Assembly: GCA_019747795.1 (NCBI GenBank)
Contig: JAIEQK010000229.1
Coordinates: 1 to 34,321 of the forward strand
DNA length: 34,321 bases
Reading direction: 5' to 3'
DNA from: Gammaproteobacteria bacterium
GTDB lineage: Bacteria; Pseudomonadota; Gammaproteobacteria; Ga0077536
Shown: positions 2,982 through 34,321 of the stretch, one piece after another
How positions within the stretch are numbered: the first letter of the stretch is position 1
How the letters are laid out: each line of letters starts with the position of its first letter
Notes under the pieces: generated by a model
Told to the model about the DNA's origin: nothing
Database searches by the model: none
Seen by the model: only the letters and a program-made list of their open reading frames with translations
Position numbers and translations under genes: made by a program

Positions 2982-4124
2982 TCAAGGACGCGCGAGCAGC
3001 ACGTCGCGCCCGACGTGCTGGATGTCGGTGTGACCGCAGAAGGCCATGCTGAGATCGAGTTCGCGCGCGATGATCTCGAGCGCGCGGGTCACGCCCGCCT
3101 CACCCAGCGCGCCGAGGCCGTAGAGGAAGGACCGGCCGATGAGCGTGCCGCGCGCGCCGGCGGCCCAGGCCTTCAGCACGTCCTGGCCCGAACGTATGCC
3201 GCCGTCCACCCACACCTCGATGCGCGAGCCGACCGCGTCGGCGATGGCTGGCAGGGCCGAGATGGTGCTCGGCGCGCCGTCCAGTTGGCGACCGCCGTGG
3301 TTGGACACCACCAGCGCGTCGGCGCCGCTGTCGGCCGCGATGCGCGCGTCCTCCACGTCCATCACGCCCTTGAGTATGAGCTTGCCGCCCCAGCGCTGCT
3401 TGATCCATTCGACGTCGGCCCAGGACAGACGTGGATCGAACTGCTTCGCGGTCCATTCACCGAGCGTGCCGATGTCGGTCACGTCCTTCACATGGCCGAC
3501 GATGTTGCCGAAGTTACGCCGCCGCGTGCCGAGCATGTTCATGCACCAGCGCGGGTGCAGCGCGAGGTTGGCGAGATTGCCGAGCGTCGGCTTGACCGGG
3601 GTGGAGAGCCCGTTCTTGATGTCGCGATGGCGCTGGCCGAGGACCTGCAGGTCCAAGGTCAGCATCAAGGCGCCGCAGTGCGCGGCGCGCGCGCGATCGA
3701 TCAGGTCTTCGACGAAGCCGCGATCGCGCATCACGTAGAGCTGGAACCAGAACGGCGCCTGGGTCGCGGCCGCGACGTCCTCGATCGAACAGATACTCAT
3801 GGTCGAGAGCGTGAACGGAACGCCGAACTTCTCTGCCGCGCGCGCGGCCAGGATCTCGCCGTCGGCGTGCATCATGCCGGTCGAGCCGGTGGGCGCGATG
3901 GCTACCGGCATCGTCACGTCCTGGCCGATCATGCGCGCGCGGATGCTGCGCTTCTCGATGTTGACCGCGACCCGCTGACGGAACTTGAGCGCTTTGAAGT
4001 CCGCCTCGTTGGCGTGGTAGGTGCTCTCGCTCCACGAGCCGGTATCGACGTAGTCGTAGAACATGCGCGGCACGCGGCGCTTCATCAGCACGCGCAGGTC
4101 TTCGATGCAGGTGACTGCGGTCAC
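2982..4124 (-). CDS. lldD: FMN-dependent alpha-hydroxy acid dehydrogenase (L-lactate dehydrogenase LldD-like)
   Basis: A 380-residue TIM-barrel flavoprotein of the LldD / glycolate oxidase family, which oxidises L-lactate or related 2-hydroxy acids to 2-oxo acids using FMN and passes electrons to the respiratory chain or oxygen. Visible family features are MFYDYVDTGSWSE near residue 21, MPVAIAPTGSTGMMH near 72 (FMN phosphate and ring contacts), FQLYV near 127, LILKGV near 249 with the flavin-contacting lysine, and SNHGGRQLDGAPS near 274 with the catalytic histidine and substrate-binding arginine. The GTG at 4124 is chosen because GGGGGAGAA lies just upstream; an upstream in-frame start at 4166 lacks support. 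It lies 73 bp after glnD and touches the phosphoesterase gene. The lldD symbol is by family; the true substrate may be another 2-hydroxy acid. Confidence 0.85.
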   Translation of the reverse strand: MTAVTCIEDLRVLMKRRVPRMFYDYVDTGSWSESTYHANEADFKALKFRQRVAVNIEKRSIRARMIGQDVTMPVAIAPTGSTGMMHADGEILAARAAEKFGVPFTLSTMSICSIEDVAAATQAPFWFQLYVMRDRGFVEDLIDRARAAHCGALMLTLDLQVLGQRHRDIKNGLSTPVKPTLGNLANLALHPRWCMNMLGTRRRNFGNIVGHVKDVTDIGTLGEWTAKQFDPRLSWADVEWIKQRWGGKLILKGVMDVEDARIAADSGADALVVSNHGGRQLDGAPSTISALPAIADAVGSRIEVWVDGGIRSGQDVLKAWAAGARGTLIGRSFLYGLGALGEAGVTRALEIIARELDLSMAFCGHTDIQHVGRDVLLARP

Positions 4125-4197
4125 TCTTCTCCCCCTTGTGGGAACTCCCCGTAGACGCGCCAGCATAACCGCCGGCGCAGGCCCAATCGAGCCTCGT

Positions 4198-6789
4198 TCA
4201 GGCCGGCGCGGCTTCCGGCGGACTCAGCTCGGCGGCGCGGTGCAGGCGGGCCAGGAGTTGCTCGGCGCGCGCGGCGTCCAGCATGTGGCCGGCCTCGTCG
4301 GTCACGAAGAACACGTCCACCGCCTTCTCGCCGAAGGTCGCGATGTTGGCGCCGCGCAGGTCGACGCCGACCTCGGCGATGGCCGCGGCGAGATTGGCGA
4401 GCAGGCCCTTGCGATCGGCCGCCACCACTTCCACCGCGGTGACGGTCTTGGCCGCCGCCTCCAGCAGCCGCACCTGCACCGGCAAGGCCTTCATCAGCAC
4501 GTCCGGCTTGGCCGGCCGCTTGATCGGCGGCGGCTCCTCGCCCGCCAGCACGCCCTCCAGGCGCTTCTTCAGACGGCCCATCTGGTCGGTCTCGCGCACC
4601 GGCTGGTCGCTGGCGTCGGTGACGTGGAACTCGTCCAGGATGCGCCCGTCGCGGAGCGCATAGGCGTGGGCCGCGAGCGCCTTGGTGTTGGCGTTGGCGA
4701 GCGCGGCGGTCAGATGCGAGAAGAGCTTGGGGCGGTCATGGCCCCAGCACAGCACCTGGGTGTAGCCACCGGTCTCGTTGACCTCGAGATGGGCGCCGGA
4801 CTCGCGCTGCAGGAGGCGACACAGCTCCAGCAGCCGCGCCGGCGGAAAGTGCAACGCGAGCGAATTGGACACCGCCGCGAGCGCGCCGCCGACCGCCTCG
4901 CGCTCGGCCGGCGCGCACAGGCTCAGCACGCTGTCGCGCCGCGACTGCAGCCGCTCGGCGTGATCGGCCGGCAGCACCTGGCCGGTCTGCAGGTAGGCCT
5001 CCGCCGCGCGGAACAGCTGCGCGAAGAGCGAGCCCTTCCAGTCGGTCCACACGCCCGGTCCGACCGCGGTGACGTCGGCCACGGTCAGCAGGAACAGGTA
5101 CACCAGGCGCTCACGATCGCCGACCAGGCGGCTGAAGTCGGCGATCACGTCGACGTCCCCCAGGTCGTAGTGCTGCGCGGTCTTCGACAGGCGCAGATGA
5201 TGCAGCACCAGCCACGCGACCAGGTCGGCGTCGTCCTCCGACAGGCCGACGCGCCGGCAGAAGCGCCGTGCGAGGTTCTCGCCGATCTCGGAGTGATCGC
5301 CGCCGCGCCCCTTGGCGATGTCGTGGTAGAGGAGCGCGATGTAGAGCAGCTCGGGCCTGTCGAGCGCCGGCATCAGCTTCGAGGCCAGCGGCATCTGGAT
5401 GTACTGGCCCTCGCCGAGGCGGAAGTCGCGCAGGATGTCGATGGCGCGCAGGGTGTGCGCGTCGACCGTGAAGTGATGGTAGCGATCGAACTGGCAGTGG
5501 CCGGTGATGCGACCGAAGTCCGGAATGAGCCGCCCGAGCACGCCGGTCTCGTGCATCTGCCTGAGCGCGGTCGCGACGTTGCGCGGCGAGCGCAGGATGG
5601 CGAGGATCATCTCGTTCGCCGCCGGCGCGGCGCGCACGGCCGCATCCACCAGGCGCGCGTGCTTGCGCACCACGCGCAGCGCGCGGCTGTTGAGATAGCG
5701 CCGCTCCTTCTGCGACTCGACGAAGATCCGCACCAGGTTCAAGGGATCGGCCGCGAAAGCGTCGACGTCGTGGACGTTGACCTCGCGCCCGTGCACCTCG
5801 ATGCCGTGGCCGAGCTTGCGCCGGCGGCGCAGGCGTCCGCCGGGCCGGATCTGCTCTTCGAAGTGCAGGATGAAGATGTCGGCGAGATCGGCGATGGTGC
5901 GCACGTGCAGGAAGTAGTTCTTCAGGAAGCGCTCCACCGCGCTCGAGCGCTCGCTGTCACGGTAGCGGAAACGCGTCGCGAGTTCGGGCTGCAGGTCGAA
6001 GCGCAGCTTGTCGGTCTCGCGGCCGGTCGCCAGATGCAGCGCCGCGCGCACCCGCCACAGGAAGTCGCGGCCGCGCACGAAGCCGTTGAACTCCTCGTCG
6101 TCCACCAGGCCCTGGCCGACCAGCTCACGCGCGGTCGGCACGCCGTACCAGGCCATGGACAGCCAGAAGATGGTGCTGACATCGCGCAGCGCGCCCTTGC
6201 CGTTCTTGAGTTCGGGCTCCATGACGAACGCGGTGTCGCCTTGCGCGCGGCGACGCGAGGCGCACTCGTCCAGCTTCAGCGTGCAGAACTCGACGCGCTC
6301 GCGCTTGCTCCAGCGCTGCTGGCCGCTGCTCTTCAGGAGTTCGGCGTAGAGCCTGCCGCTGCCGTGCACGATGCGCGACTCGAGCAGCGCGGTGCGCGCC
6401 TGGTGGTTGTCGCGCGCGAACTTGCGCGCCTCGGCCACGGTGCGCACGGCGTGACCGAGATGCGCGCCGCTATCCCACACCAGCTGGCTGAAGGTCTTGA
6501 TCGCGGCGTCGATGCGTCGATCGTCGGCCTGCGGCACCAGGAAGAGCAGGTCCCAGTCGGAATGGGGACAGAGTTCGGCGCGACCGTAGCCACCCACCGC
6601 GACCACGTCCACCGCCGCGGCCACCTCGCCCGCCACGCGCCGCCACAGGTCCACCACCAGTTCGTCCACCGCCGCGCTGACGTACTTGACGATGGCGCGA
6701 CCGCCGTGGGCGTCGAGGCGCGAGTCGGCGCCGGCCATGATGGCCTGGCGACGGCTTTTGACGTATTCGCGTAGATCGAGATCGAGCAC
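4198..6789 (-). CDS. glnD: [Protein-PII] uridylyltransferase / uridylyl-removing enzyme
   Basis: An 863-residue protein with the full GlnD domain order. Residues 62-85 hold the nucleotidyltransferase site (GGYGRAEL followed by SDWDLLFLV, with the metal-binding aspartates). A helical linker follows, then an HD domain around 440-505 (VDAHTLRA, LLYHDIAKGRGGDHSEIG). Two ACT domains close the protein (about 690-760 with GHDRPKLFSHL, and 795-855 with AADRKGLLANLAAAI). GlnD senses glutamine and adds or removes UMP on PII proteins to set nitrogen status. The GTG at 6789 gives MLDLDLREYV; an internal ATG 17 codons later (MAGAD) is an alternative. Length is close to the roughly 890 residues of E. coli GlnD. 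It is divergent from the DUF1272 gene. Confidence 0.95.
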   Translation of the reverse strand: MLDLDLREYVKSRRQAIMAGADSRLDAHGGRAIVKYVSAAVDELVVDLWRRVAGEVAAAVDVVAVGGYGRAELCPHSDWDLLFLVPQADDRRIDAAIKTFSQLVWDSGAHLGHAVRTVAEARKFARDNHQARTALLESRIVHGSGRLYAELLKSSGQQRWSKRERVEFCTLKLDECASRRRAQGDTAFVMEPELKNGKGALRDVSTIFWLSMAWYGVPTARELVGQGLVDDEEFNGFVRGRDFLWRVRAALHLATGRETDKLRFDLQPELATRFRYRDSERSSAVERFLKNYFLHVRTIADLADIFILHFEEQIRPGGRLRRRRKLGHGIEVHGREVNVHDVDAFAADPLNLVRIFVESQKERRYLNSRALRVVRKHARLVDAAVRAAPAANEMILAILRSPRNVATALRQMHETGVLGRLIPDFGRITGHCQFDRYHHFTVDAHTLRAIDILRDFRLGEGQYIQMPLASKLMPALDRPELLYIALLYHDIAKGRGGDHSEIGENLARRFCRRVGLSEDDADLVAWLVLHHLRLSKTAQHYDLGDVDVIADFSRLVGDRERLVYLFLLTVADVTAVGPGVWTDWKGSLFAQLFRAAEAYLQTGQVLPADHAERLQSRRDSVLSLCAPAEREAVGGALAAVSNSLALHFPPARLLELCRLLQRESGAHLEVNETGGYTQVLCWGHDRPKLFSHLTAALANANTKALAAHAYALRDGRILDEFHVTDASDQPVRETDQMGRLKKRLEGVLAGEEPPPIKRPAKPDVLMKALPVQVRLLEAAAKTVTAVEVVAADRKGLLANLAAAIAEVGVDLRGANIATFGEKAVDVFFVTDEAGHMLDAARAEQLLARLHRAAELSPPEAAPA

Positions 6790-6951
6790 CTGGCGAACTC
6801 CGCTGGACGGCCGCGGGCCGCGGGCATCGGCGCGAGGGTAGCAAGTCGGGGCGGTCGGTTAAAGGCGCGTGGTCGCGCCGACACCCTTGCTTGAGATCGC
6901 CCGGGCAGGCAGGCTGCGAGCCATGTCGCAACGCTCGGCGAGGAGGTTCCC

Positions 6952-7260
6952 GTGCTCGAACTGCGTCCCACCTGTGAACACTGCAACCGCGCGCTGCCGC
7001 CGGCCGCCACCGACGCGATGATCTGCAGCTACGAATGCACCTTCTGTCGCGACTGCGTCGACGGCGTGCTCGGCAACGTCTGCCCCAACTGCGGCGGCGG
7101 CTTCGCGCCGCGACCGATACGCCCGAGCGTGGATCGCAAGGGCGGCAATTTCCTCGGCAACGATCCGGCCAGCGTCACGGTCAAGCACCGCCCGGTGGAC
7201 GCCGAGGCGCAGCGCGCGCTCGTCGCGGCGGTGGGGCACCTGGCGCCGGAGGCGAGATAG
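6952..7260 (+). CDS. DUF1272 family cysteine-rich (putative zinc-binding) protein
   Basis: A 102-residue protein starting at a GTG preceded by a strong GCGAGGAGG ribosome site. The first 50 residues carry eight cysteines (positions 8, 11, 25, 29, 32, 35, 44 and 47) in CxxC pairs, including CEHCNRALPP, ICSYECTFCRDC and CPNCGG, which is the hallmark of DUF1272. The pattern suggests one or two structural zinc sites. The C-terminal half is less conserved (RPIRPSVDRKGGNFLGN). The role of this family is unknown. It is divergent from glnD and convergent with the PAS histidine kinase, from which it is separated by a palindromic repeat. Confidence 0.85.
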   Translation: MLELRPTCEHCNRALPPAATDAMICSYECTFCRDCVDGVLGNVCPNCGGGFAPRPIRPSVDRKGGNFLGNDPASVTVKHRPVDAEAQRALVAAVGHLAPEAR

Positions 7261-7263
7261 GCC

Positions 7264-7337
7264 TGTAGGGCCGATTTCAATCGGCCATGTGCAGCGCCAA
7301 TCGAACCCCGTGAATGGCGGGTTGAAACCCGCCCTAC
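7264..7337. repeat. TGTAGG-type palindromic repeat pair, copy 2
   Basis: The left arm TGTAGGGCCGATTTCAATCG and the right arm beginning TGGCGGGTTGAAACCCGCCC form facing hairpins around a 27-bp core. Read on the same strand the arms differ by compensated stem changes. The element sits between the convergent DUF1272 and histidine kinase genes, and the right arm provides the kinase TAG stop (7334-7336 on the minus strand). It is closely similar in both arms to copy 4 at 23516-23591. Confidence 0.85.
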
Positions 7338-8917
7338 GCGGACGCCGGCAGGAACAGGCGCACGGTGGTGCCGACATCGACGGTCGACTCGACCAGCAGG
7401 TGGCCGCCGGCGGCGTGGACCGCACCGTGGACCACGGCGAGGCCGAGCCCGGTGCCGCGCCCCACTTCCTTGGTGGTGAAGAAGGGATTGAAGATGGCGT
7501 GGCGATGTTCGAGCGGAATGCCGACGCCATCGTCGCTGACGCGCAGTTCCACGTAGTCGCCCGCGAAGTCCTCGCCACAGGACTCGCAGTGGCCGTGCAT
7601 CGCGCTCGGCGCCAGCAGGCTGACCGAGAGCCGGCCATGGCCCTTGCCGTCCACGATCGCGTCGCGCGAGTTGATCGCGAGATTGCTCAGCACCTGCTGC
7701 AGGTCCATGGGCTCGATGCCGAGCGCAGGCGTGTCTTCCAGTGCGACCGCGAAGTCGATGCTGACTGGCAGCGCGGCGCGCAGCAGGCGGAGCGTATCGT
7801 CGACCAGCGCGCGCGGCGGATGAGCGAAGCGCAGTTCCTCGGGTCGGCGCGGGCGGCCGAACACCTGCAGCCGCTCCACCAGGCCGGCGGCGCGCTCGGC
7901 CGCGCTCACCACCTCGCGCAGATAGCTCTCGATCTTGCCGCCGCGCACGAGTTCCGCATTGGCCAGCGCGAGCTTGCCGTAGCCCAGGATGCCGGTCAGC
8001 ATGTTGTTGAAGTCGTGCGCGATACCGCCGGCAAGCTGGCCCAGCGCGTCCATCTTCTGCGCGCGCAGGAACTGCGCCTGCAGGCGCTCGCGCTCGGACT
8101 GCGCGCGCTGCTCCGCGGCGCGCAGCTCGTCGGCCGCGCGCTTGCTCGCGTCGATGTCCCAGGTCACGCCCTGCACGCTCGCCACGCGGCCATCGGCGCC
8201 CAGACTCGGGGTACCGCGCGAGCACACCCAGCGCGCGCCGCCGTCCCGCCGACGCACGCGGAACTCCACCTCGTAGTGCCCGCCGTCGTTCAGCGCGGCC
8301 GCGATCTGCGCTTCGACCCGCGGCAGGTCCTCGTCCAGCATGCAGGCCTTGAGCTGCGCATGGGAGAGGCTGCAGGGCGTGTCGGGCGCCAGGTCGAACA
8401 GTTCGATGATGCGCGGGTCGAGCGTCAGCACGTCCGTCGCGCGGTCCCAGTGCCAGGTCACGAGCCGCGCGGCATCCACCGCGAGCCGCAGACGCGCTTC
8501 GCTCGCTTCCAGAGCCACGCCGGACTTCACCCGTTCGCTGATGTCGTCGAACACCACCACCACGTGTTCCGCGCGCGGCGCGTAGACGGACAGCGTGTAC
8601 CAGCGGTCCAGGCTGCCGACCCGCGCGTCTAAGCGCATGGCGGGCGCGCCGCGGCCGATACGGCCGAACTGTTCGAGCAGTTCCACCTCGTCCGCGCCGA
8701 GCAGCGGCAGGAACTCCGAGGCGCGACGGCCGCGCAGATCGCTGAATCCGGTGAGTTCGAGGCAGGCGCGGTTGGTCACGAGCACGGTGAGATCGACGGC
8801 CCGCTCACCGTCGTAGTGCAGTTCGCAGTAGGCCACGCCGTTCAGCAGGTGCTCGAACAGCGCGGTAAAGACTTCTTCGGCACTCCCTGCCTGATCGTGG
8901 ACCAACAAAGAGTGCAT
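7334..8917 (-). CDS. PAS-domain sensor histidine kinase (soluble)
   Basis: A 527-residue kinase without membrane segments, so probably cytoplasmic. Residues about 15-130 and 140-260 are two PAS-like domains (VLVTNRACLELTGFSD; YEVEFRVRRRDGGARWV and GVTWDIDASKRA at the end of the second). A coiled-coil region leads to the dimerisation domain with GGIAHDFNNMLTGILGY, the phospho-acceptor being His301. The ATPase domain has the N box (LSNLAINSRDA, about 410), G1 (SDDGVGIP), F box (FNPFFTTKEVG) and G2 (GRGTGLGL). Between the N box and G1 there is a CESC pair (Cys444, Cys447) flanked by histidines. No receiver or regulator gene is adjacent. Its stop codon lies inside a palindromic repeat. Ligand unknown. 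Confidence 0.9.
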   Translation of the reverse strand: MHSLLVHDQAGSAEEVFTALFEHLLNGVAYCELHYDGERAVDLTVLVTNRACLELTGFSDLRGRRASEFLPLLGADEVELLEQFGRIGRGAPAMRLDARVGSLDRWYTLSVYAPRAEHVVVVFDDISERVKSGVALEASEARLRLAVDAARLVTWHWDRATDVLTLDPRIIELFDLAPDTPCSLSHAQLKACMLDEDLPRVEAQIAAALNDGGHYEVEFRVRRRDGGARWVCSRGTPSLGADGRVASVQGVTWDIDASKRAADELRAAEQRAQSERERLQAQFLRAQKMDALGQLAGGIAHDFNNMLTGILGYGKLALANAELVRGGKIESYLREVVSAAERAAGLVERLQVFGRPRRPEELRFAHPPRALVDDTLRLLRAALPVSIDFAVALEDTPALGIEPMDLQQVLSNLAINSRDAIVDGKGHGRLSVSLLAPSAMHGHCESCGEDFAGDYVELRVSDDGVGIPLEHRHAIFNPFFTTKEVGRGTGLGLAVVHGAVHAAGGHLLVESTVDVGTTVRLFLPASA

Positions 8918-9936: not shown

Positions 9937-10114
9937 GCCTGGATTTCTCACAGGTGCTCGTCGCGAGGGCGACGAGATGCCGTTGTGGCGGGCCGCACGG
10001 AGCAAAACCCGGCGAAGGCATGGTCGACACCATGTCGAGACGGGTTTTGCGAGTACGGCCCACTACTGCGCGCAGATCGGCGGCCGCGGCAGGGGGCCTG
10101 TGAGAAATCCAGGC
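9937..10114. repeat. 174-bp structured inverted-repeat element, copy 1
   Basis: The ends form an exact 18-bp inverted repeat, GCCTGGATTTCTCACAGG against CCTGTGAGAAATCCAGGC. Inside are CTCGTCGC-GAGG-GCGACGAG, a 10-bp stem GCAAAACCCG/CGGGTTTTGC, and a 6-bp hairpin CATGGT-CGAC-ACCATG nested in it. The core (9939-10112) is the same length, without gaps, as the second copy at 30368-30541; differences between copies keep base pairing. It lies between the Rieske gene and the LLM gene, ending about 42 bp before the LLM start codon. It looks like a small non-autonomous mobile or structured-RNA element. Confidence 0.85.
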
Positions 10115-10156
10115 TAGTATGGCCGCCCTGTTTCAGCACATATCGCGGAGGTTTCC

Positions 10157-21179: not shown

Positions 21180-22592
21180 ATGAGTTCTGCCGCGCCCCAT
21201 TATCTCGATCTGACCGCGCTGTCCGCCCTGCTCCGCCAGCGCGAGCTGTCGCCCGTGGCCGTGACCGAGGCGCAGCTCGCGCGCATCGCCGCGCTGGACG
21301 GGAATCTCAAGAGCTACGCCGCGGTGATGGCGGATACCGCGCTGGCCGAGGCGCGCGCGGCCGAGCAGGAGATCGCCGCCGGCCGCTGGCGCGGGCCGCT
21401 GCACGGTGTGCCGCTGGCGGTGAAGGACCTGTGCGACGCGACCGGCGTGCGCACGGTGGCCGGCATGCCGCGGGTCCGCGGCGCGGTGCCGCCGGCGAGC
21501 GCCGATTCCACCGTCGTCGCGCGGCTGCGCGCCGCGGGCGCGGTGATCCTCGGCAAGCTGCAGCTCACCGAGGGCGCGGTCGCCCATCACCATCCGGACA
21601 TACCGCCACCGGTGAACCCGCACCACGCGGGCTACTGGAGTGGCGCGTCGTCGAGCGGCACCGGCGTCGCGGTCGCCGCGGGCCTGTGCTATGGCGGCCT
21701 GGGCTCGGACACCGGCGGCTCGATCCGCCTGCCCTCCTTCGCCAACGGCGTCACCGGCCTCAAGCCGAGCTGGGGCCGGGTGAGCCGCGCCGGCGTGTTC
21801 GCTCTAGCCTGGTCGTTCGATCACGTCGGCCCGATGGCCCGCAGCGCCGCCGACTGCGGCGCGATTCTGAACGCCATCGCCGGCGCCGACCCGGCCGATC
21901 CGACCGCGTTGCAGGCGCCGGTGCCGGATCACTTGTACAAGCTGGACGGCGATCTGCGCGGCCTGCGCGTCGGACTCGACACCGCGTGGGCGTCGTACGG
22001 CATCGACGCGCCGACCCAGCAGGCGCTCGAGGCCTGCCTCGCGGTGCTGAAGGACGCCGGCGCGACCGTGGTGCCGGTGAAGATGCCCGACACCCAGGCG
22101 GCGCTCGCAGCCTGGACGCCGATGTGCTGCGCCGAGGTCGCGGCGACCCATGCCGAGAATTACCCGTCGCGCGCGGCGGAGTACGGCCCGGGCCTGAAGG
22201 GCCTCATCGAGGCGGGCGGCGCCACCTCCGGACTCGACTACGCCCGCGCCCACGATGTGCGTCAGCAGTTCCGCGGCCAGATGGCCGCCCTGTTCCGTGG
22301 CGTCGACGTCCTGCTCGCACCGGCCTTCCTCGGCCAGAACATGACGCTGGAACGCTTCGCGAGCTTCGGCTCCCAGGTCGACGACTGGGACAACCTGCTG
22401 CGCTACACCGCGCCCTTCGACGTGTCCGGCTCGCCGACCCTGTCGTTGCCGGCCGGCTTCAACGCCGATGGCGCGCCTTTCGGCTTCCAGCTGGTCGCCG
22501 ATGTGCTGAACGAGCCTCTGCTGGTGCGCGCCGGCGACGCCTGGCAGCGCGCCACGGACCATCACCAGCGCCGCCCCAAGCTCGCGCCCTAA
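21180..22592 (+). CDS. Amidase (amidase-signature family)
   Basis: A 470-residue amidase-signature enzyme, distinct from the amidase at 11102-12538. The triad is Lys82 (PLAVKDLCDATG), cis-Ser157 (YWSGASSSGTGVAVAAG) and nucleophile Ser181 (GSDTGGSIRLPS); the spacings of 75 and 24 residues match the family. Other landmarks are LKPSWGRVSRAGVF, FDHVGPMARS, and the C-terminal FDVSGSPTLSLPAGF. The substrate is not known. GCGAGGATG precedes the ATG at 21180. It lies directly after the repeat cluster and 63 bp upstream of the MscS gene on the same strand. Confidence 0.92.
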   Translation: MSSAAPHYLDLTALSALLRQRELSPVAVTEAQLARIAALDGNLKSYAAVMADTALAEARAAEQEIAAGRWRGPLHGVPLAVKDLCDATGVRTVAGMPRVRGAVPPASADSTVVARLRAAGAVILGKLQLTEGAVAHHHPDIPPPVNPHHAGYWSGASSSGTGVAVAAGLCYGGLGSDTGGSIRLPSFANGVTGLKPSWGRVSRAGVFALAWSFDHVGPMARSAADCGAILNAIAGADPADPTALQAPVPDHLYKLDGDLRGLRVGLDTAWASYGIDAPTQQALEACLAVLKDAGATVVPVKMPDTQAALAAWTPMCCAEVAATHAENYPSRAAEYGPGLKGLIEAGGATSGLDYARAHDVRQQFRGQMAALFRGVDVLLAPAFLGQNMTLERFASFGSQVDDWDNLLRYTAPFDVSGSPTLSLPAGFNADGAPFGFQLVADVLNEPLLVRAGDAWQRATDHHQRRPKLAP

Positions 22593-28804: not shown

Positions 28805-29025
28805 CGCTCGCGCTCGCTCATCATCGGGCGCTCTGGGGTGAGCGCGGAGCGGTCCTTATACCTGCGTCCCGGCGGCCCTGCCATGCCACGCCGCCCGATT
28901 CGACGAATATGTCAATTGTTCACCGGCGCGCGGCGCGACGCGGGAACCCATGCCCCGCGCGGCTGCAACAAGTCATTGGCCCTGGGTATCATTGGGCTCC
29001 CGCTCCTGCCGCTGGACGCTCGCCC
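28805..29025. other. Intergenic region between the divergent RTX and transaminase genes
   Basis: A 221-bp region holding the promoters for two divergent genes. On the minus strand TATAAG (28855-28860) and TTGACA (28910-28915) resemble promoter hexamers, but their spacing is too large to pair. No operator palindrome or transcription factor site was recognised. Confidence 0.3.
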
Positions 29026-30357
29026 ATGGAACAGCCCGTCATCACCACCGCGCCCGAGCTCGAAGCGCTGTGGCTGCCCTTCACCCACAATCGTCACTTC
29101 AAGCGCCACCCGCGCCTGGTGAGCGGCGCCGAGGGCATGTACTACACGACGCCAGACGGCCGGCGTGTGCTCGATGGCCTCTCGGGCCTGTGGTGCTGCA
29201 ACGCCGGGCATCGCCATCCGCGCATCGTCGAGGCGGTGAAGGCGCAGTTGGACGAACTGGATTACGCGGTCGCCTTCCAGGTGCATCACCCGCGCGCCTT
29301 CGAACTGGCCTCGGCGCTGGCCGCCGCCGCGCCCGCCGATCTGAACCACGTGTTCTTCACCAACTCGGGCTCGGAGGCGGTGGACACCGCGCTCAAGGTG
29401 GCGCTCGCCTACCACCAGGCGCGCGGCGAAGGTCAGCGCTTCCGCTTCATCGGCCGCGCGCGTGGCTATCACGGCGTCGGCTTCGGCGGGCTGTCGGTCG
29501 GCGGCATGGTGGCGAACCGCAAGGCCTTCGCGGCCGCCCTGCTGCCCGGGGTCGATCACCTGCCGCACACGCACAATCTCGAGCACATGGCCTTCAGCCG
29601 AGGCCAGCCCGAGTGGGGCGCGCATCTCGCCGACGAACTCGAGAACATCATCGCCCTGCACGACGCCTCGACCATCGCGGCCGTGATCGTCGAGCCGATG
29701 CAGGGTTCGGCCGGCGTGATCGTGCCGCCGCGCGGCTATCTCGAGCGCCTGCGCGCGCTGTGCGACAAGCACGGCATCCTCCTCATCTTCGACGAGGTGA
29801 TCACCGCCTTCGGTCGCCTCGGCACGAGCTTCGCCGCCGAGCGCTTCGGCGTCATGCCCGACCTGCTGACCTTCGCCAAGGGCGTCAACAGCGGCATGGT
29901 GCCGCTCGGCGGCGTGATCGTGAAACAGGGCATCTACGACGCCTTCATGCGCGGCCCCGAGCACCTGGTGGAGTTCTTCCACGGCTACACCTACTCCGGC
30001 CACCCGCTCGCCTGCGCGGCGGGCCTGGCCGCGCTCGAGGTGTATCGCGAGGAAGGCCTGTTCGAGCGCGCGCGACGGCTCGAGAGCGTGCTGGAAGACG
30101 CGGTGCACGCGCTGCGCGGCGAGCCGAACGTGATCGACATCCGCAACTTCGGCCTGGCCGCCGCGGTGGAACTGGCGCCGCGCGCCGGGCAGCCCTCGCT
30201 GCGCGCCATGCAGGTCTTCGACCGCTGCTTCCAGGACGGCGTGATGCTGCGCTACACCGGCGACATCCTGGCGCTCGGCCCCGCGCCCATCGCGAGCGAG
30301 GACGAGGTCGGCATGCTGGTCGACACCCTGCGCCGCGCGATCCGCGCCGCCGCCTGA
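29026..30357 (+). CDS. Class III PLP-dependent transaminase (omega-amino acid:pyruvate type)
   Basis: A 443-residue aminotransferase of the class III fold, close in appearance to beta-alanine/omega-amino acid:pyruvate aminotransferases. It has LWLPFTHNRHFKRHPRL near 15, the phosphate-binding FTNSGSEAVDTALK near 111, RARGYHGVGFGG near 144, the pyridoxal-contacting FDEVITAFGR with Asp256, and the PLP lysine Lys285 in LTFAKGVNSGM. HGYTYSGHPLACAA follows near 325. The amino donor is not predictable, and no neighbour fixes it. The ATG at 29026 (MEQPVITTAP) is chosen; an upstream in-frame start at 28909 would add a non-homologous leader. It lies 215 bp upstream of the halohydrin-dehalogenase-like gene, with a 174-bp element between. 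Confidence 0.9.
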   Translation: MEQPVITTAPELEALWLPFTHNRHFKRHPRLVSGAEGMYYTTPDGRRVLDGLSGLWCCNAGHRHPRIVEAVKAQLDELDYAVAFQVHHPRAFELASALAAAAPADLNHVFFTNSGSEAVDTALKVALAYHQARGEGQRFRFIGRARGYHGVGFGGLSVGGMVANRKAFAAALLPGVDHLPHTHNLEHMAFSRGQPEWGAHLADELENIIALHDASTIAAVIVEPMQGSAGVIVPPRGYLERLRALCDKHGILLIFDEVITAFGRLGTSFAAERFGVMPDLLTFAKGVNSGMVPLGGVIVKQGIYDAFMRGPEHLVEFFHGYTYSGHPLACAAGLAALEVYREEGLFERARRLESVLEDAVHALRGEPNVIDIRNFGLAAAVELAPRAGQPSLRAMQVFDRCFQDGVMLRYTGDILALGPAPIASEDEVGMLVDTLRRAIRAAA

Positions 30358-30367
30358 GCTTGCTAGA

Positions 30368-30541
30368 CTGGACTTCTCGCAGGTGCTCGTCGCGAGGGCG
30401 ACGAGATGCCGTCGTAGTGGGCCGCACGGAGCAGAACTCGGCGAAGGCATACTCGGCAGTATGTCGAGACGAGTTTTGCGAGTACGGCCCACTACCACGC
30501 GCAGATCGGCGGCCGCAGCAAAGGACCTGTGAGAAGTCCAG
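30368..30541. repeat. 174-bp structured inverted-repeat element, copy 2
   Basis: The second copy of the element at 9937-10114. The ends CTGGACTTCTCGCAGG and CCTGTGAGAAGTCCAG pair with one G-T wobble. The hairpins of copy 1 are kept with compensatory changes: GCAGAACTCG/CGAGTTTTGC, and CATACT-CGGC-AGTATG. GTAGTGGGCCG/CGGCCCACTAC is an exact 11-bp pair here. The copy is flanked by GCTAGACT on both sides (30362-30369 and 30542-30549), a possible 8-bp target duplication that slightly overlaps the ends. It ends about 31 bp before the SDR start codon. Confidence 0.85.
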
Positions 30542-30572
30542 GCTAGACTCGAACAACGACGAGGAGTCCGAC

Positions 30573-31253
30573 ATGAGCCAGCGCCTGCGTGGCAAACGCG
30601 TGGTGGTCACCCAGTGCAGCGCCTTCATGGGCCCGCCCACGGTGGCGGTATTCCGCGAGGAAGGCGCGGAGGTGTTCGCCGATGATCGCGACCTCGCGGT
30701 CGGCGGCGCCTGCGAGGCGCTGATCGCCGACGCCGGCGAGGTCGACGTGCTGGTCGCCAACCTCGCAGGGCCGACCTTCTCCGGCACCGCCACCACGGCG
30801 CTCGCCGACGAGCAGTTCGAACAGACCTTCGCGCTCATGGTGCGCCCGCTGCATCGCCTGGTGCGCGCGGTGCTGCCGCAGATGATCGCGCGCCGCGCCG
30901 GCAAGGTGGTGGTGTACGGCAGCGCCTCGGCGCTGAAGGGCATGAAGACGCTGGCGGCTTACTCGGCGGCGCGCGCCGCGCAGGTCGGCTACGTGCAGTC
31001 GGTCGGCGTCGAAGTGGCGCCGCACAACGTGCAGATCAACCTCATCGCGCAGAACTACATCGAGAATCCGGACTACTACCCGCCGGAGCTGACCGCGCGC
31101 GAGTCCTTCCAGACCTCGCTCAAGCGCCAGGTGCCGGCCGGTCGGCTCGGCACCGCGCGCGAGGACGCGCTGTTCGCCCTGTTCCTCGCCAGCGACGAGA
31201 GCAACTACTTCACCGGCCAGGCCATTCCCTTCTGCGGCGGGTGGGTGCAGTGA
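30573..31253 (+). CDS. Halohydrin dehalogenase-like SDR
   Basis: A 226-residue SDR-fold protein whose active-site motifs are those of halohydrin dehalogenases, not normal SDR oxidoreductases. The glycine-rich NAD(P) motif TGxxxGxG is replaced by TQCSAFMG (Thr13-x4-Phe18-x-Gly20). The catalytic set is Ser117, Tyr130 and Arg134 (S-x12-Y-x3-R), where a usual SDR has Y-x3-K. Both patterns are used to recognise this family, which eliminates halide from vicinal halohydrins to give epoxides, and in reverse opens epoxides with halide, cyanide, azide or similar anions without a cofactor. QRLGT-like GRLGTAREDALFALFLAS and YFTGQAIPFCGGW also resemble HheC. GAGGAG precedes the ATG. It overlaps the next gene by four bases (GTGA). 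The activity is inferred from motifs only. Confidence 0.82.
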   Translation: MSQRLRGKRVVVTQCSAFMGPPTVAVFREEGAEVFADDRDLAVGGACEALIADAGEVDVLVANLAGPTFSGTATTALADEQFEQTFALMVRPLHRLVRAVLPQMIARRAGKVVVYGSASALKGMKTLAAYSAARAAQVGYVQSVGVEVAPHNVQINLIAQNYIENPDYYPPELTARESFQTSLKRQVPAGRLGTAREDALFALFLASDESNYFTGQAIPFCGGWVQ

Positions 31254-31561
31254 GCGGCGCGCGCGGTCATCACGACATGGGTGGCCTGCCGGCCGGCGAG
31301 GTGGTGGCCAGCGAACACGACTTCGCGCTGTGGGAGAAGCGCGTCGACGCGCTGCTGGTGCTGCTGAGCAAGAAGCAACTGATGACGGTGGACGAGCTGC
31401 GTCGCAACATCGAGAGCCTGGGCGCCGAGGCCTACGACACCATGAGCTACTACGAACGCTGGATCCACGCCATCACCCAGACCCTGCTCCAGCGCGGCGT
31501 GCTGCACGTGGACGAACTCGGTCGGCGCATGGCCGAGGTCACGGCGCGCGGTCATGAGTGA
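31250..31561 (+). CDS. Nitrile hydratase/thiocyanate hydrolase beta subunit, N-terminal domain as separate protein
   Basis: A 103-residue protein matching the N-terminal domain of the nitrile hydratase beta subunit, which in thiocyanate hydrolase is the separate beta subunit. Marks are GHHDMGGLPAG near the start, then FALWEKRVDALL, and MSYYERWIHAITQTLLQRGV. The GTG at 31250 overlaps the TGA of the preceding SDR (GTGA), a sign of coupling; an in-frame GTG at 31241 is possible but overlaps more. It overlaps the following gene by eight bases. The protein packs with the alpha subunit to form the active site entrance in known hydratases. The split into two polypeptides resembles thiocyanate hydrolase and toyocamycin nitrile hydratase. 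Confidence 0.8.
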   Translation: MSGARGHHDMGGLPAGEVVASEHDFALWEKRVDALLVLLSKKQLMTVDELRRNIESLGAEAYDTMSYYERWIHAITQTLLQRGVLHVDELGRRMAEVTARGHE

Positions 31562-31868
31562 CGCGGTGGCGCCGCGCTTCGCGGTCGGCGAGCCGGTGCG
31601 CGTCCGCGTCGCCCATCCGCCCGGGCACGTGCGTACGCCGTTCTACATTCGCGGCAAGCGCGGCGTCGTCGAGCGCCTGTGCGGCCAGTACGCGAACCCC
31701 GAGGAGCTGGCCTACGGCCGCGATGGTAAGCCGCGACTGCCGCTGTACCGGGTGCGGTTCCGCCAGTGCGAGGTGTGGCCCGAGTACGCCGGCGCGCCGG
31801 AGGACACCTTGGACGTGGAGATCTACCAGCATTGGCTGGAGGCGGACGATCCGTGCACGGCCGGTTGA
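31554..31868 (+). CDS. Nitrile hydratase/thiocyanate hydrolase beta subunit, C-terminal SH3-like domain as separate protein
   Basis: A 104-residue protein corresponding to the C-terminal SH3-like domain of nitrile hydratase beta (alpha subunit of thiocyanate hydrolase). RFAVGEPVRVR, TPFYIRGKRGVVERLCG, LPLYRVRF and the final VEIYQHWLE are the usual signatures of this domain. The ATG at 31554 overlaps the stop of the N-terminal domain gene in ATGAGTGA. The TGA stop lies inside a palindromic repeat, which separates it by 95 bp from the alpha subunit gene. The two beta parts together equal a normal beta subunit. Confidence 0.85.
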   Translation: MSDAVAPRFAVGEPVRVRVAHPPGHVRTPFYIRGKRGVVERLCGQYANPEELAYGRDGKPRLPLYRVRFRQCEVWPEYAGAPEDTLDVEIYQHWLEADDPCTAG

Positions 31869-31951
31869 ATCCGGCCTTGTAGGGCCGAATTCATTCGGCC
31901 GACCGAGATTCCGAGCGGAGCCGTGCATGGCCGGTTGAAACCGGCCCTACA
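31851..31951. repeat. Palindromic repeat element inside the hydratase operon (copy 5)
   Basis: Three hairpins in a row: GGCCGGTTGAATCCGGCC (31859-31876), TGTAGGGCCGAATTCATTCG with its completion (31878-31900), and TGGCCGGTTGAAACCGGCCC with CTACA (31928-31951). The first and third are near copies: CCGTGCANGGCCGGTTGAA is repeated at 31851 and 31921, a 70-bp period. It separates the beta C-terminal gene from the alpha gene and may act on mRNA stability or translation ratio. Confidence 0.85.
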
Positions 31952-31963
31952 GAGAGAAGCGAC

Positions 31964-32599
31964 ATGTCAGACGATCACGATCACGATCACGACCACCCGC
32001 ACGCCCCGCCGCGCCCCGACCAGGACGACACCCTCACTCATTGGCGGGCGATGGAGATCGCGGTGCGCGAGCTCCTGATCGAGAAAGGCGTGCTCACGGC
32101 CGACGAGGTGCGCCTCGCGGTCGAGGACATGGACGCGCGCACGCCCTCGGTCGGCGCGCGGGTGGTGGCGCGGGCCTGGATGGACCCGGACTTCAAGGCG
32201 CGGCTGCTGGCCGACGGCAACGCCGCGCTCACCGAGCTCGGCCTCGATCGCGGCCCCTACAAACTGGTGGTGGTGGAGAACGACGAGACCACCCACAACC
32301 TCGTGGTGTGCACGCTCTGCTCCTGCTACCCGCGCTGGCTGCTCGGGCTACCGCCCGACTGGTACAAGAGCCGCGCCTACCGCTCGCGCGCGGTGAGCGA
32401 GCCGCGCGCGGTGCTGCGCGAGTTCGGCACCGAGCTGCCGCCGGCCACCGTGGTGCGCGTCCACGATTCGACCGCCGACATGCGCTACCTGGTGCTGCCG
32501 CGTCGGCCGGCCGGCACCGAGGACTGGCCGGAGTCGCGCCTGGCTGAGCTGGTCGGCCGCGACACCATGATAGGCGTGAGCCTTCCGCGTCAGCCCTGA
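31964..32599 (+). CDS. Nitrile hydratase/thiocyanate hydrolase alpha (metal) subunit, cobalt type
   Basis: A 211-residue protein with the metal-site motif CTLCSC at 116-121 (Cys116, Cys119, Ser120, Cys121). In this family the two outer cysteines are oxidised to sulfinate/sulfenate and the site holds Co(III) or Fe(III); the threonine after the first cysteine is the cobalt-type form. The downstream LLGLPPDWYKSRAYRSRAV is typical. The N-terminus is histidine- and aspartate-rich (DDHDHDHDHPH), a possible metal-loading tail. It hydrates nitriles to amides, or thiocyanate to carbonyl sulfide and ammonia; which one cannot be told. No activator (P14K/CobW-like) gene is seen in the window. It is the last gene of the SDR/hydratase unit. 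Confidence 0.88.
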   Translation: MSDDHDHDHDHPHAPPRPDQDDTLTHWRAMEIAVRELLIEKGVLTADEVRLAVEDMDARTPSVGARVVARAWMDPDFKARLLADGNAALTELGLDRGPYKLVVVENDETTHNLVVCTLCSCYPRWLLGLPPDWYKSRAYRSRAVSEPRAVLREFGTELPPATVVRVHDSTADMRYLVLPRRPAGTEDWPESRLAELVGRDTMIGVSLPRQP

Positions 32600-32698
32600 G
32601 TCCGCTACAGCCCTCGCTCGGCCGCGCCGCTAACCGGCGCATTGTCGAACCCAAGGGCGTTGCGTGGCGTGCTGGCCTTGCCCCATAGTCGAACCGTC

Positions 32699-34321
32699 AT
32701 GACCTCGGCCGCCACCGAAACGCCCGCCGGGCCGCCGCCCGCGCCGCGCGTGCATCGCAACGCGCTGCCCGCCGGCACCACGCTGCTGTGGTACACCATC
32801 GAACACGTGCTCGGTCAGGGCGCCTTCGGCGTCACCTACCTCGCCCAGGACGCCAATCTCCACCGCCAGGTGGCGATCAAGGAATACCTGCCGATGCAGC
32901 TCGCGCACCGCGAGCCGGACGGCTCGGTCATGCCCTCCACCGACGACTTCGCCGAGGAATACGAGGCGGGCCTCAAGCGCTTCATCTTCGAGGCGCGCAC
33001 CCTGGCGCGCTTCGAGCACCCGGGCATCGTGCGGGTACACAACATCTTCGAGGCCAACCGCACGGCCTACATGGTCATGCAGTACGAGCAGGGCGAGGGC
33101 CTCGACCGCCTGCTGAAGGCGCGCGGCACGCTCACCGAAGAAGAGGTCCTGCAGCTCCTGCACCCGCTGCTGGACGGGCTGGAGGTGATCCACGGCCAGG
33201 GCTTCGTGCATCGCGACATCAAGCCGGCGAACATCTTCGTGCGCGCCGACGGCACGCCGGTGCTGCTCGACTTCGGCTCGGCGCGCGAGGCGACGCGCGG
33301 CGAATCGCGCACGCTGACCAACTTCGTCTCGCCGGGCTATGCGCCCATCGAACAGTATTCCGGGCGCAGCGATCAGCAGGGGCCGTGGAGCGACATCTAC
33401 GGCCTCGGGGCGACGGTCTACCGCGCCATGACCGGTCGCGCGCCGCATGACGCCATCGATCGCTCCCAGGCGCTGGCGCAGAACACCGCGGACAGCTACG
33501 AGCAGGGCGCGCGCCACGCGAAGCGCAACTACAGCCCGCAGCTGCTCGCGGCCATCGATCACGCGCTCGCGTTTCGCGTGCAGGACCGGCCGCAGAGCAT
33601 CGTCGAGTGGCGCCGCGAGCTGCCGCCGCCGCTGAACTTCGGCGCCGACACGGCGCAGTGGCGCAGCACCGACACGCCGACCACCGGGCAGGACCTGGGC
33701 GCACCGACGTTGGCGGTGACGGTGGTGACCACCCAGGCCAGCCAGCCGCGCCCGATCACCGAGCAGGAGGCGCCCGCCACCCGCTCCCTGACGCGTCTCG
33801 TGCGGCGGCACTACCCGCTCGGTCTGGTGGTGATGGTGGTGACCGCCGTGGCGCTCGGCACCTGGCTCGGCCGCGGCGTGATCGAGACGCCCGCCACCGA
33901 GACGCCCAACGACCCGCCGGCGAGCGCGGTCGCGCCGGCAGCGCCATCCGCATCTTCCACCGATGAGGCGCCCGTGCCCGGCGCCGCCGCGCCGATGGTG
34001 CCTGTCCCGATGCCGGAAGCCCCCGCGCCCAACCAGACCAGCCTCGCCGAACAGGTGACGCTGCTGCTGTTCGCCGCCGGCACCGACCTCGCGGCGCTCC
34101 GGCTCACCACGCCCCCCGGCCAGAACGCCCACGACAAGTACCAGGAAGTGCTGCGCCTCGACCCGGGCAACGCCGAGGCGCTGCGCGGGCTGGCCGACAT
34201 CGGCGCGCGCTACGTGGAACTCGCCTGGCAGGCGCTGAACGACGGCGACCTCGCGCGCGCCACCAGCCACCTCGACCAGGCGACGCTGGTCGCGCCCGAA
34301 ACCCCGGGCATCGCGGCGGCG
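32699..34321 (+). CDS. Membrane serine/threonine protein kinase (3' cut by window)
   Basis: The reading frame starts at ATG 32699 and stays open to the window end (541 codons). Residues about 31-300 form a Hanks-type kinase: P-loop LGQGAFGVTYLA near 38, Lys61 (VAIKEYLP), the Glu98 region, the catalytic HRDIKPANIF with Asp173, DFGSAR with Asp191, and activation segment TNFVSPGYAPIEQY. A single transmembrane helix lies near 371-390 (YPLGLVVMVVTAVALG), followed by a proline/alanine-rich linker and an outer segment that begins TPR-like repeats (YQEVLRLDPGNAEALRGLA). This topology matches bacterial kinases that phosphorylate partners in the cytoplasm and sense outside. No phosphatase is nearby in the window. 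Confidence 0.92.
   Translation, partial: MTSAATETPAGPPPAPRVHRNALPAGTTLLWYTIEHVLGQGAFGVTYLAQDANLHRQVAIKEYLPMQLAHREPDGSVMPSTDDFAEEYEAGLKRFIFEARTLARFEHPGIVRVHNIFEANRTAYMVMQYEQGEGLDRLLKARGTLTEEEVLQLLHPLLDGLEVIHGQGFVHRDIKPANIFVRADGTPVLLDFGSAREATRGESRTLTNFVSPGYAPIEQYSGRSDQQGPWSDIYGLGATVYRAMTGRAPHDAIDRSQALAQNTADSYEQGARHAKRNYSPQLLAAIDHALAFRVQDRPQSIVEWRRELPPPLNFGADTAQWRSTDTPTTGQDLGAPTLAVTVVTTQASQPRPITEQEAPATRSLTRLVRRHYPLGLVVMVVTAVALGTWLGRGVIETPATETPNDPPASAVAPAAPSASSTDEAPVPGAAAPMVPVPMPEAPAPNQTSLAEQVTLLLFAAGTDLAALRLTTPPGQNAHDKYQEVLRLDPGNAEALRGLADIGARYVELAWQALNDGDLARATSHLDQATLVAPETPGIAAA

Follow-up and report, generated by a model that had tools for sequence, protein, structure and literature searches.

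A halohydrin-dehalogenase-family gene beside an arginine-type three-gene hydratase in one gammaproteobacterial genus

Halohydrin dehalogenases (HHDHs), the first of which were cloned from strains obtained by enrichment with haloalcohols and epihalohydrins, are defined by the motifs T-x4-[FY]-x-G (nucleophile pocket) and Ser-x12-Tyr-x3-Arg (catalytic triad) and take cyanide, according to one account of the family (PMC4989007). The three-subunit nitrile hydratase AnhD-AnhE-AnhA of Streptomyces canus is described in another report as lacking an activator gene and as having a betaN chain that serves as a cobalt and subunit-swapping chaperone (PMC7329996). Thiocyanate hydrolase (SCNase; PDB 2dd4) is a further enzyme with a split beta subunit. 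Genes akin to these enzymes lie together in a stretch of gammaproteobacterial DNA of 34,321 nucleotides (contig JAIEQK010000229.1 of assembly GCA_019747795.1, referred to as a whole as the window), where a small run of same-strand genes encodes an omega-transaminase, an HHDH-family short-chain dehydrogenase/reductase (SDR) and the betaN, betaC and alpha chains of a hydratase. Full-text literature searches, with subscription journals mostly outside their coverage, found no description of an HHDH-nitrile hydratase pairing, and PMC6941271 states that HHDH is absent from that paper's genome. The distribution of the arrangement suggests that two enzymes encoded separately elsewhere have become neighbours at the level of one genus. 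The four genes that form the cassette are given below.

30573 to 31253, plus strand: halohydrin-dehalogenase-family SDR, 226 aa (Pfam adh_short_C2, 2.3e-29)
31250 to 31561, plus strand: hydratase betaN (equivalent of SCNase beta and AnhD), 103 aa, GTG start (Pfam NHase_beta_N, 6.8e-18)
31554 to 31868, plus strand: hydratase betaC (equivalent of SCNase alpha and AnhE), 104 aa (Pfam NHase_beta_C, 5.5e-24)
31964 to 32599, plus strand: hydratase alpha, 211 aa (Pfam NHase_alpha, 6e-78), with a His/Asp-rich N terminus and a cobalt-type CTLCSC loop followed by Y-P-R124; this arginine defines what is called the Arg type below

The first-pass annotation had described this layout as tightly coupled, and its positions are exact throughout: the SDR and betaN overlap through GTGA (SDR stop TGA at 31251-31253, betaN GTG at 31250-31252), the betaN stop and betaC ATG overlap through ATGAGTGA (31554-31561), and the alpha ATG follows the betaC stop by 95 bp. 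The SDR/betaN overlap of the window is not conserved in a second species of the genus, G002; there, about 69 bp lie between the HHDH gene and the presumed betaN start, and 1 bp lies between betaC and alpha.

Conservation of the pair was followed in several samples of genomes, in each case for the window's HHDH type only. Of the 36 genomes examined from the order, which consists of one family, 22 carry this type, and hydratase genes stand beside it in two of these 22, the window and G002 (1.5 kb inspected per side, with four stretches ending early at contig ends). Among the best 80 of 481 GTDB loci, a single one, again G002, carries hydratase genes in its flanks (up to 10 kb; five of the 80 have less than 1.5 kb downstream). 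A phylum-wide sample of 398 genomes, taken to be the same set in the HHDH and hydratase scans on the strength of equal size and handles and with the best seven or eight first-look candidates scored per genome in each, yielded this HHDH type in four genomes and a hydratase in 54, with both in three and adjacency only in the window. From the side of the hydratase, 11 genomes with an Arg-type enzyme (window and G002 excluded) include one with this HHDH, G007, where it is on another contig. All 16 Arg-type neighbourhoods read (6-16.5 kb, from eight genomes, G007, G017 and six plasmids) lack both an open reading frame (ORF) with the two HHDH motifs at SDR spacing and a tblastn match to the window SDR. 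A conserved HHDH-hydratase operon type was accordingly rejected, the pair not occurring in different families within these samples.

The two congeners give this distribution its likely history. G002 has the pair, within a block syntenic with the window. In G001 the order is aminotransferase-HHDH-kinase, with about 130 bp, including a palindrome, between HHDH and kinase and no hydratase at the site, and the rest of this genome yielded no Arg-type alpha. G001 and G002 share 90.7% identity in the HHDH and 90.9% in the aminotransferase, compared with 80-84% to the window (HHDH 80-81%), and because they are mutually closest, loss of the hydratase in G001 with retention of the HHDH would be the simplest history. 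Since the pairing is local to one genus and was apparently lost in a close relative, it probably does not represent a dedicated pathway. The account favoured here, with moderate confidence, is that two enzymes in the operon of one genus each have their own substrate and serve independent detoxifying or scavenging ends rather than successive steps. A conserved coupled pathway is not borne out by the counts in the order, in GTDB and in the phylum sample, nor by the HHDH that G001 keeps without a hydratase, although the pair narrowly escapes being unique to the window through its presence in one congener.

Several observations weigh against such independence or against the history on which it draws. 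The G001 assembly is incomplete in other places (530 contigs, 92% complete), though its contig is unbroken through the site. Two species with proteins 20-25% different have retained the linkage, so that weak selection for it is possible, and the GTGA overlap suggests translational coupling of SDR and betaN in the window strain. Within the order, 21 of the 22 genomes with the HHDH also have a hydratase alpha, whatever its type, against 9 of the 14 without it (n = 36; Fisher p = 0.024); the test is weak, uncorrected for genome completeness or relatedness, and confounded by genome incompleteness. The retained linkage and this weak co-occurrence argue mildly for some shared use. Moreover, an Arg-type hydratase on a Polymorphobacter plasmid is preceded, at about 400 bp, by a truncated ordinary SDR gene with the NAD-type motif.

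Were the enzymes to act in succession, the HHDH would open an epoxide with cyanide to a beta-hydroxynitrile, which the hydratase would convert to a beta-hydroxyamide. The cyanide acceptance of HHDHs noted above (PMC4989007), the overlap of the SDR and hydratase genes and two amidase genes about 8 and 18 kb upstream, with similar genes in the congener, are in keeping with this cascade, but it is made improbable by the scarcity of the pair (two of 22 HHDH genomes in the order, one of the best 80 GTDB loci), by the HHDH that G001 retains without a hydratase and by the position of the amidases outside the gene run; nor was a cyanide-source or nitrile-transporter gene recognised alongside by eye, no search having been aimed at them. 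The two amidase genes of the window (Pfam PF01425; 11102-12538, minus strand, and 21180-22592, plus strand) might act on an amide product but are not linked to the pair, and amidase-like genes were recognised by eye at comparable distances in the congener.

The remaining features around the cassette are as follows.

29026 to 30357, plus strand: omega-aminotransferase, class III (NCBIfam AptA, 702 bits, cut-off 500); start presumed at the Met that is residue 40 of the ORF 28909-30357
30363 to 30546, no strand assigned: dispersed element resembling a miniature inverted-repeat transposable element (MITE), 184 bp, its 25-nt ends inverted and 88% complementary, lying in the aminotransferase-HHDH gap
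31866 to 31958, no strand assigned: dispersed palindromic repeat, filling most of the betaC-alpha gap
32642 to 34321, plus strand: protein kinase gene outside the cassette (Pkinase, 8.8e-40), running off the window and with an uncertain start

The aminotransferase is upstream of the HHDH, and the kinase a downstream neighbour, in all three genomes of the genus examined (window, G001 and G002), and the aminotransferase-HHDH gap measures 215 bp in the window as compared with 56 and 106 bp in the congeners. The MITE-like element has 15 matches in the genome, and 11 of these, its own copy counted once, are nearly full length and 73-100% identical to it; a second copy lies in the window at 9939-10117. 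The palindromic repeat of the betaC-alpha gap has 70 matches in the same genome, a count that includes its own copy and overlapping matches on both strands; the stretch 31848-31958 holds direct and inverted palindromic repeats of the CCGGTTGAAACCGGCC / GGCCGAATTCATTCGGCC type. Dispersed repeats thus occupy two of the gaps, and the block is syntenic between the window and G002, such that adjacency would require no special selection and the genes might be chance neighbours with no common regulation. This is nevertheless very unlikely, as the common strand, 4-bp overlap and compact order make shared transcription of SDR and hydratase the simplest reading.

By family, the window SDR can be placed among the halohydrin dehalogenases, in agreement with the first-pass annotation, which had called it halohydrin-dehalogenase-like. 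The nucleophile-pocket motif reads T13-QCSA-F18-M-G20 and replaces the SDR Gly-rich motif, the catalytic triad is present as S117, Y130 and R134, and T13, G20, S117, Y130 and R134 are invariant in all 17 aligned sequences. Among solved structures the SDR is closest to 8xxb, 4zd6 (halohydrin epoxidase B, HheB), 7b73 (which we take to be HheD2) and 5b12, at E values of 4e-68 to 3e-66, the next match being at 3e-32. In common with HheB (4zd6 and 5b12) and the SDRs 7b73 and 8xxb, it has both family motifs, a similar length and no Gly-rich NAD motif, although only about half of its residues are identical to theirs by eye. An ordinary dehydrogenase was rejected, since the HHDH motifs occupy the NAD and Lys sites.

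The best 80 GTDB relatives of this HHDH, 56-80% identical to it, are mostly from gammaproteobacterial metagenome genomes, and at least five (L078, L083, L088, L091 and L140) belong to genomes also among the 22 of the order. Neighbours up to five genes away were counted at 77 of these loci (three lack a called HHDH gene), with Pfam domains assigned from one or two members per cluster. Glutathione S-transferases occur at 23 of the 77, glyoxalases at 22 and EHN-type epoxide hydrolases at nine, in genomes that are related, so that the counts are not independent, and no neighbour is universal; these surroundings fit the handling of epoxides and other electrophiles. The EHN-type epoxide hydrolases (e.g., L128:10748-11947 and L081:4025-5269), whose nine loci are the tally of a single cluster, offer a natural-context clue to HHDH function; a literature search on the natural role of HHDHs turned up only unrelated work. 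In three related genomes from metagenomes, a RES-domain (toxin-type) gene stands immediately before the HHDH (L081 and L084 by Pfam, L080 by eye). One further HHDH, 77% identical to that of the window, is in a record titled as a Klebsiella pneumoniae metagenome-assembled genome (L079; CAMAVY010000258.1), a label that is probably wrong.

The hydratase is, by family and metal loop, a cobalt-type enzyme with a split beta subunit, and it is distinct from ordinary nitrile hydratases in the arginine in place of tryptophan after CYP, the betaN-betaC-alpha order and an alpha chain on the SCNase side of the trees. The three-subunit, split-beta hydratase of the first-pass annotation is correct in outline, with betaN and betaC as separate genes beside alpha. 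The loop reads CTLCSCYP-R-WLLG, with the cobalt-type C-T-L-C-S-C intact, and the residue opposite the arginine is tryptophan in all seven printed alignments to solved hydratases. A phmmer search with the loop region of alpha scores higher with 3vyh_A than with 1ire_A (70.2 and 66.6 bits; +3.6), and higher with the SCNase gamma chain 2dd4_C than with 3vyg_C (56.6 and 52.6 bits; +4.0); 3vyh presumably carries the Trp-to-Arg change in the Pseudonocardia hydratase, and 3vyg the reverse change, Arg-to-Trp, in SCNase. An ordinary cobalt-type nitrile hydratase in the same genome (contig C250) has the CTLCSC loop and the family in common with it, but differs in its tryptophan after CYP and in its order of alpha followed by a single beta gene, and its alpha is 52% identical to that of the window.

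The alpha chain stays below the cut-offs of two profile models. On the NCBIfam model for nitrile hydratase alpha (TIGR01323) it scores 245.5, narrowly below the cut-off of 249.85, compared with 242.6 to 267.5 for four other Arg-type alphas and 306.9 for the Trp-type alpha of the same genome; on that for SCNase gamma (TIGR03887) it reaches 204.7, below the cut-off of 291.45, whereas the one SCNase-type alpha scored (L189) attains 393. The selectivity of SCNase is attributed to two pocket arginines, one following CYP in gamma and one preceding a conserved arginine in beta. The window hydratase has one of the two; the second position is Leu50 in betaN, where the seven of nine SCNase-type loci with an aligned betaN read E-R-R and two Arg-type plasmid copies (Streptomyces and Rhizobium) have lysine by eye. 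Membership of SCNase was rejected on the TIGR03887 score and the missing second arginine. In PDB profile searches with betaN and betaC, the SCNase alignment was not among the top five listed.

The first-pass annotation had mentioned thiocyanate in passing as a substrate, and an enzyme mainly of the SCNase kind, hydrolysing thiocyanate and perhaps cyanate or cyanide beside an anion-binding HHDH, would make anion detoxification the theme of the operon. This suggestion is strengthened by the betaN-betaC-alpha order of SCNase-type loci, the arginine at the SCNase position and an alpha on the SCNase side of the trees, but the model scores, Leu50 and surroundings of Arg-type genes that, by eye, are unlike those of thiocyanate oxidation leave it unlikely. 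The split beta is a further feature in common with SCNase, and a loop that reads GLPPDWY instead of GQSPEWY a further difference. For maturation of the window hydratase, the S. canus enzyme would be the best model; it shares the betaN-betaC-alpha order, the lack of an adjacent activator gene and the cobalt type (PMC7329996). The likeness lies in gene order and description; a relative on a Streptomyces plasmid, likewise ordered betaN-betaC-alpha, has the arginine.

Arg-type hydratases form a group that extends well beyond the genus. A hydratase alpha is present in 30 of the 36 genomes of the order, with the Arg type in four (window, G002, G007 and G017) and tryptophan in the remainder, save one divergent copy in G001; this copy (L161; G001:C104:1-9000, alpha at about 701-1231) has CTLCSC followed by TAFT in place of YPW and a very long branch. 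In searches of a class sample and of the phylum sample, in which the best seven or eight first-look candidates were scored per genome, hydratase matches were found in 20 of 369 genomes (23 loci) and in 54 of 398 (29 loci taken besides the window's contig), respectively. The former comprise Trp-type loci (two with Phe or Thr), nine of SCNase type, as assigned by common loop and tree with one of the nine checked on the SCNase model, the window and one further Arg type (G247); the latter comprise eight of Arg type, two of them near-identical and all ordered betaN-betaC-alpha, and 21 with Trp, Phe or His and alpha first. All six plasmid relatives fetched are of Arg type, six of 177 records picked mostly by identity and therefore biased towards it, and in the five that carry annotation the enzyme is labelled nitrile hydratase. 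In total, the group spans several proteobacterial families and plasmids of Streptomyces and Planktothrix.

In an alpha tree of 54 rows, the 14 Arg-type and SCNase rows are split from the other 40 at 100/99, and in one of 85 rows all 27 with arginine (18 Arg type, nine SCNase type) are separated from all 58 others at 100/99, with no exception by residue (identical sequences counted once; L077, L161, L171 and L196, as fragments or long branches, omitted from the larger tree and L077 from the smaller). The tree has no root, its SCNase branch is long (3.1) and branching within the arginine side is weak, so a bipartition rather than a rooted clade is claimed. The idea that a split beta marks the Arg type was rejected, since all 18 Arg-type loci are split, yet so are 19 of 52 Trp-type loci (counted by ORF where both halves were placed, three of the split Trp-type loci having been read). 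The Arg-type genes are ordered betaN-betaC-alpha at 14 loci and betaC-alpha-betaN at four, never with alpha first, and beta comes first at six of the 52 Trp-type loci; only the arginine and, less strictly, the gene order go hand in hand.

Other Arg-type hydratases come behind genes of unrelated kinds, with as immediate partners an iron-type alcohol dehydrogenase (G247), a flavin monooxygenase (G007), a CoA ligase (G017), an asparagine synthase (a Planktothrix plasmid) and a lipid-A-type acyltransferase (G485). On the Planktothrix agardhii plasmid (L202, 3391-6576), the hydratase lies right behind the asparagine-synthase gene in a setting that resembles a natural-product cluster. Another (L245 of G481, 3327-7371) stands behind a gene that, by eye, is transporter-binding-protein-like and is divergent from a formamidase gene (NCBIfam equivalog, 580 bits), a setting suggestive of cyanide or formamide chemistry in some enzymes of the Arg type.

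Returning to the account of two independent enzymes, it would start in the ancestor of one gammaproteobacterial genus, where the three genes of an Arg-type cobalt hydratase were placed right behind an HHDH gene already resident there. The HHDH, with Ser117-Tyr130-Arg134 and an anion pocket replacing the NAD site, would interconvert halohydrins and epoxides and open epoxides with small anions, and the hydratase, with cobalt bound in the CTLCSC of alpha and a two-chain beta, would hydrate a small, probably polar or anionic nitrile, betaN probably aiding maturation as reported for AnhD of S. canus. The two would be co-transcribed and most likely act independently.

A more speculative proposal joins them in a two-enzyme route, in which the HHDH attaches cyanide or thiocyanate to an endogenous epoxide and the product is then hydrated by the Arg-type hydratase, whose additional arginine in the pocket would suit a nitrile that is polar or charged. 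This is distinctly improbable, but if it were true, the Arg-type clade would stand as a third functional class, intermediate between nitrile hydratase and thiocyanate hydrolase. A dedicated pathway would provide HHDHs with a natural partner; on comparison, this hydratase does not fill that role in general. It is the Arg-type three-subunit hydratase group, rather than the gene pairing, that is the more interesting lead, for here the step from nitrile to thiocyanate chemistry may be tested with two residues.

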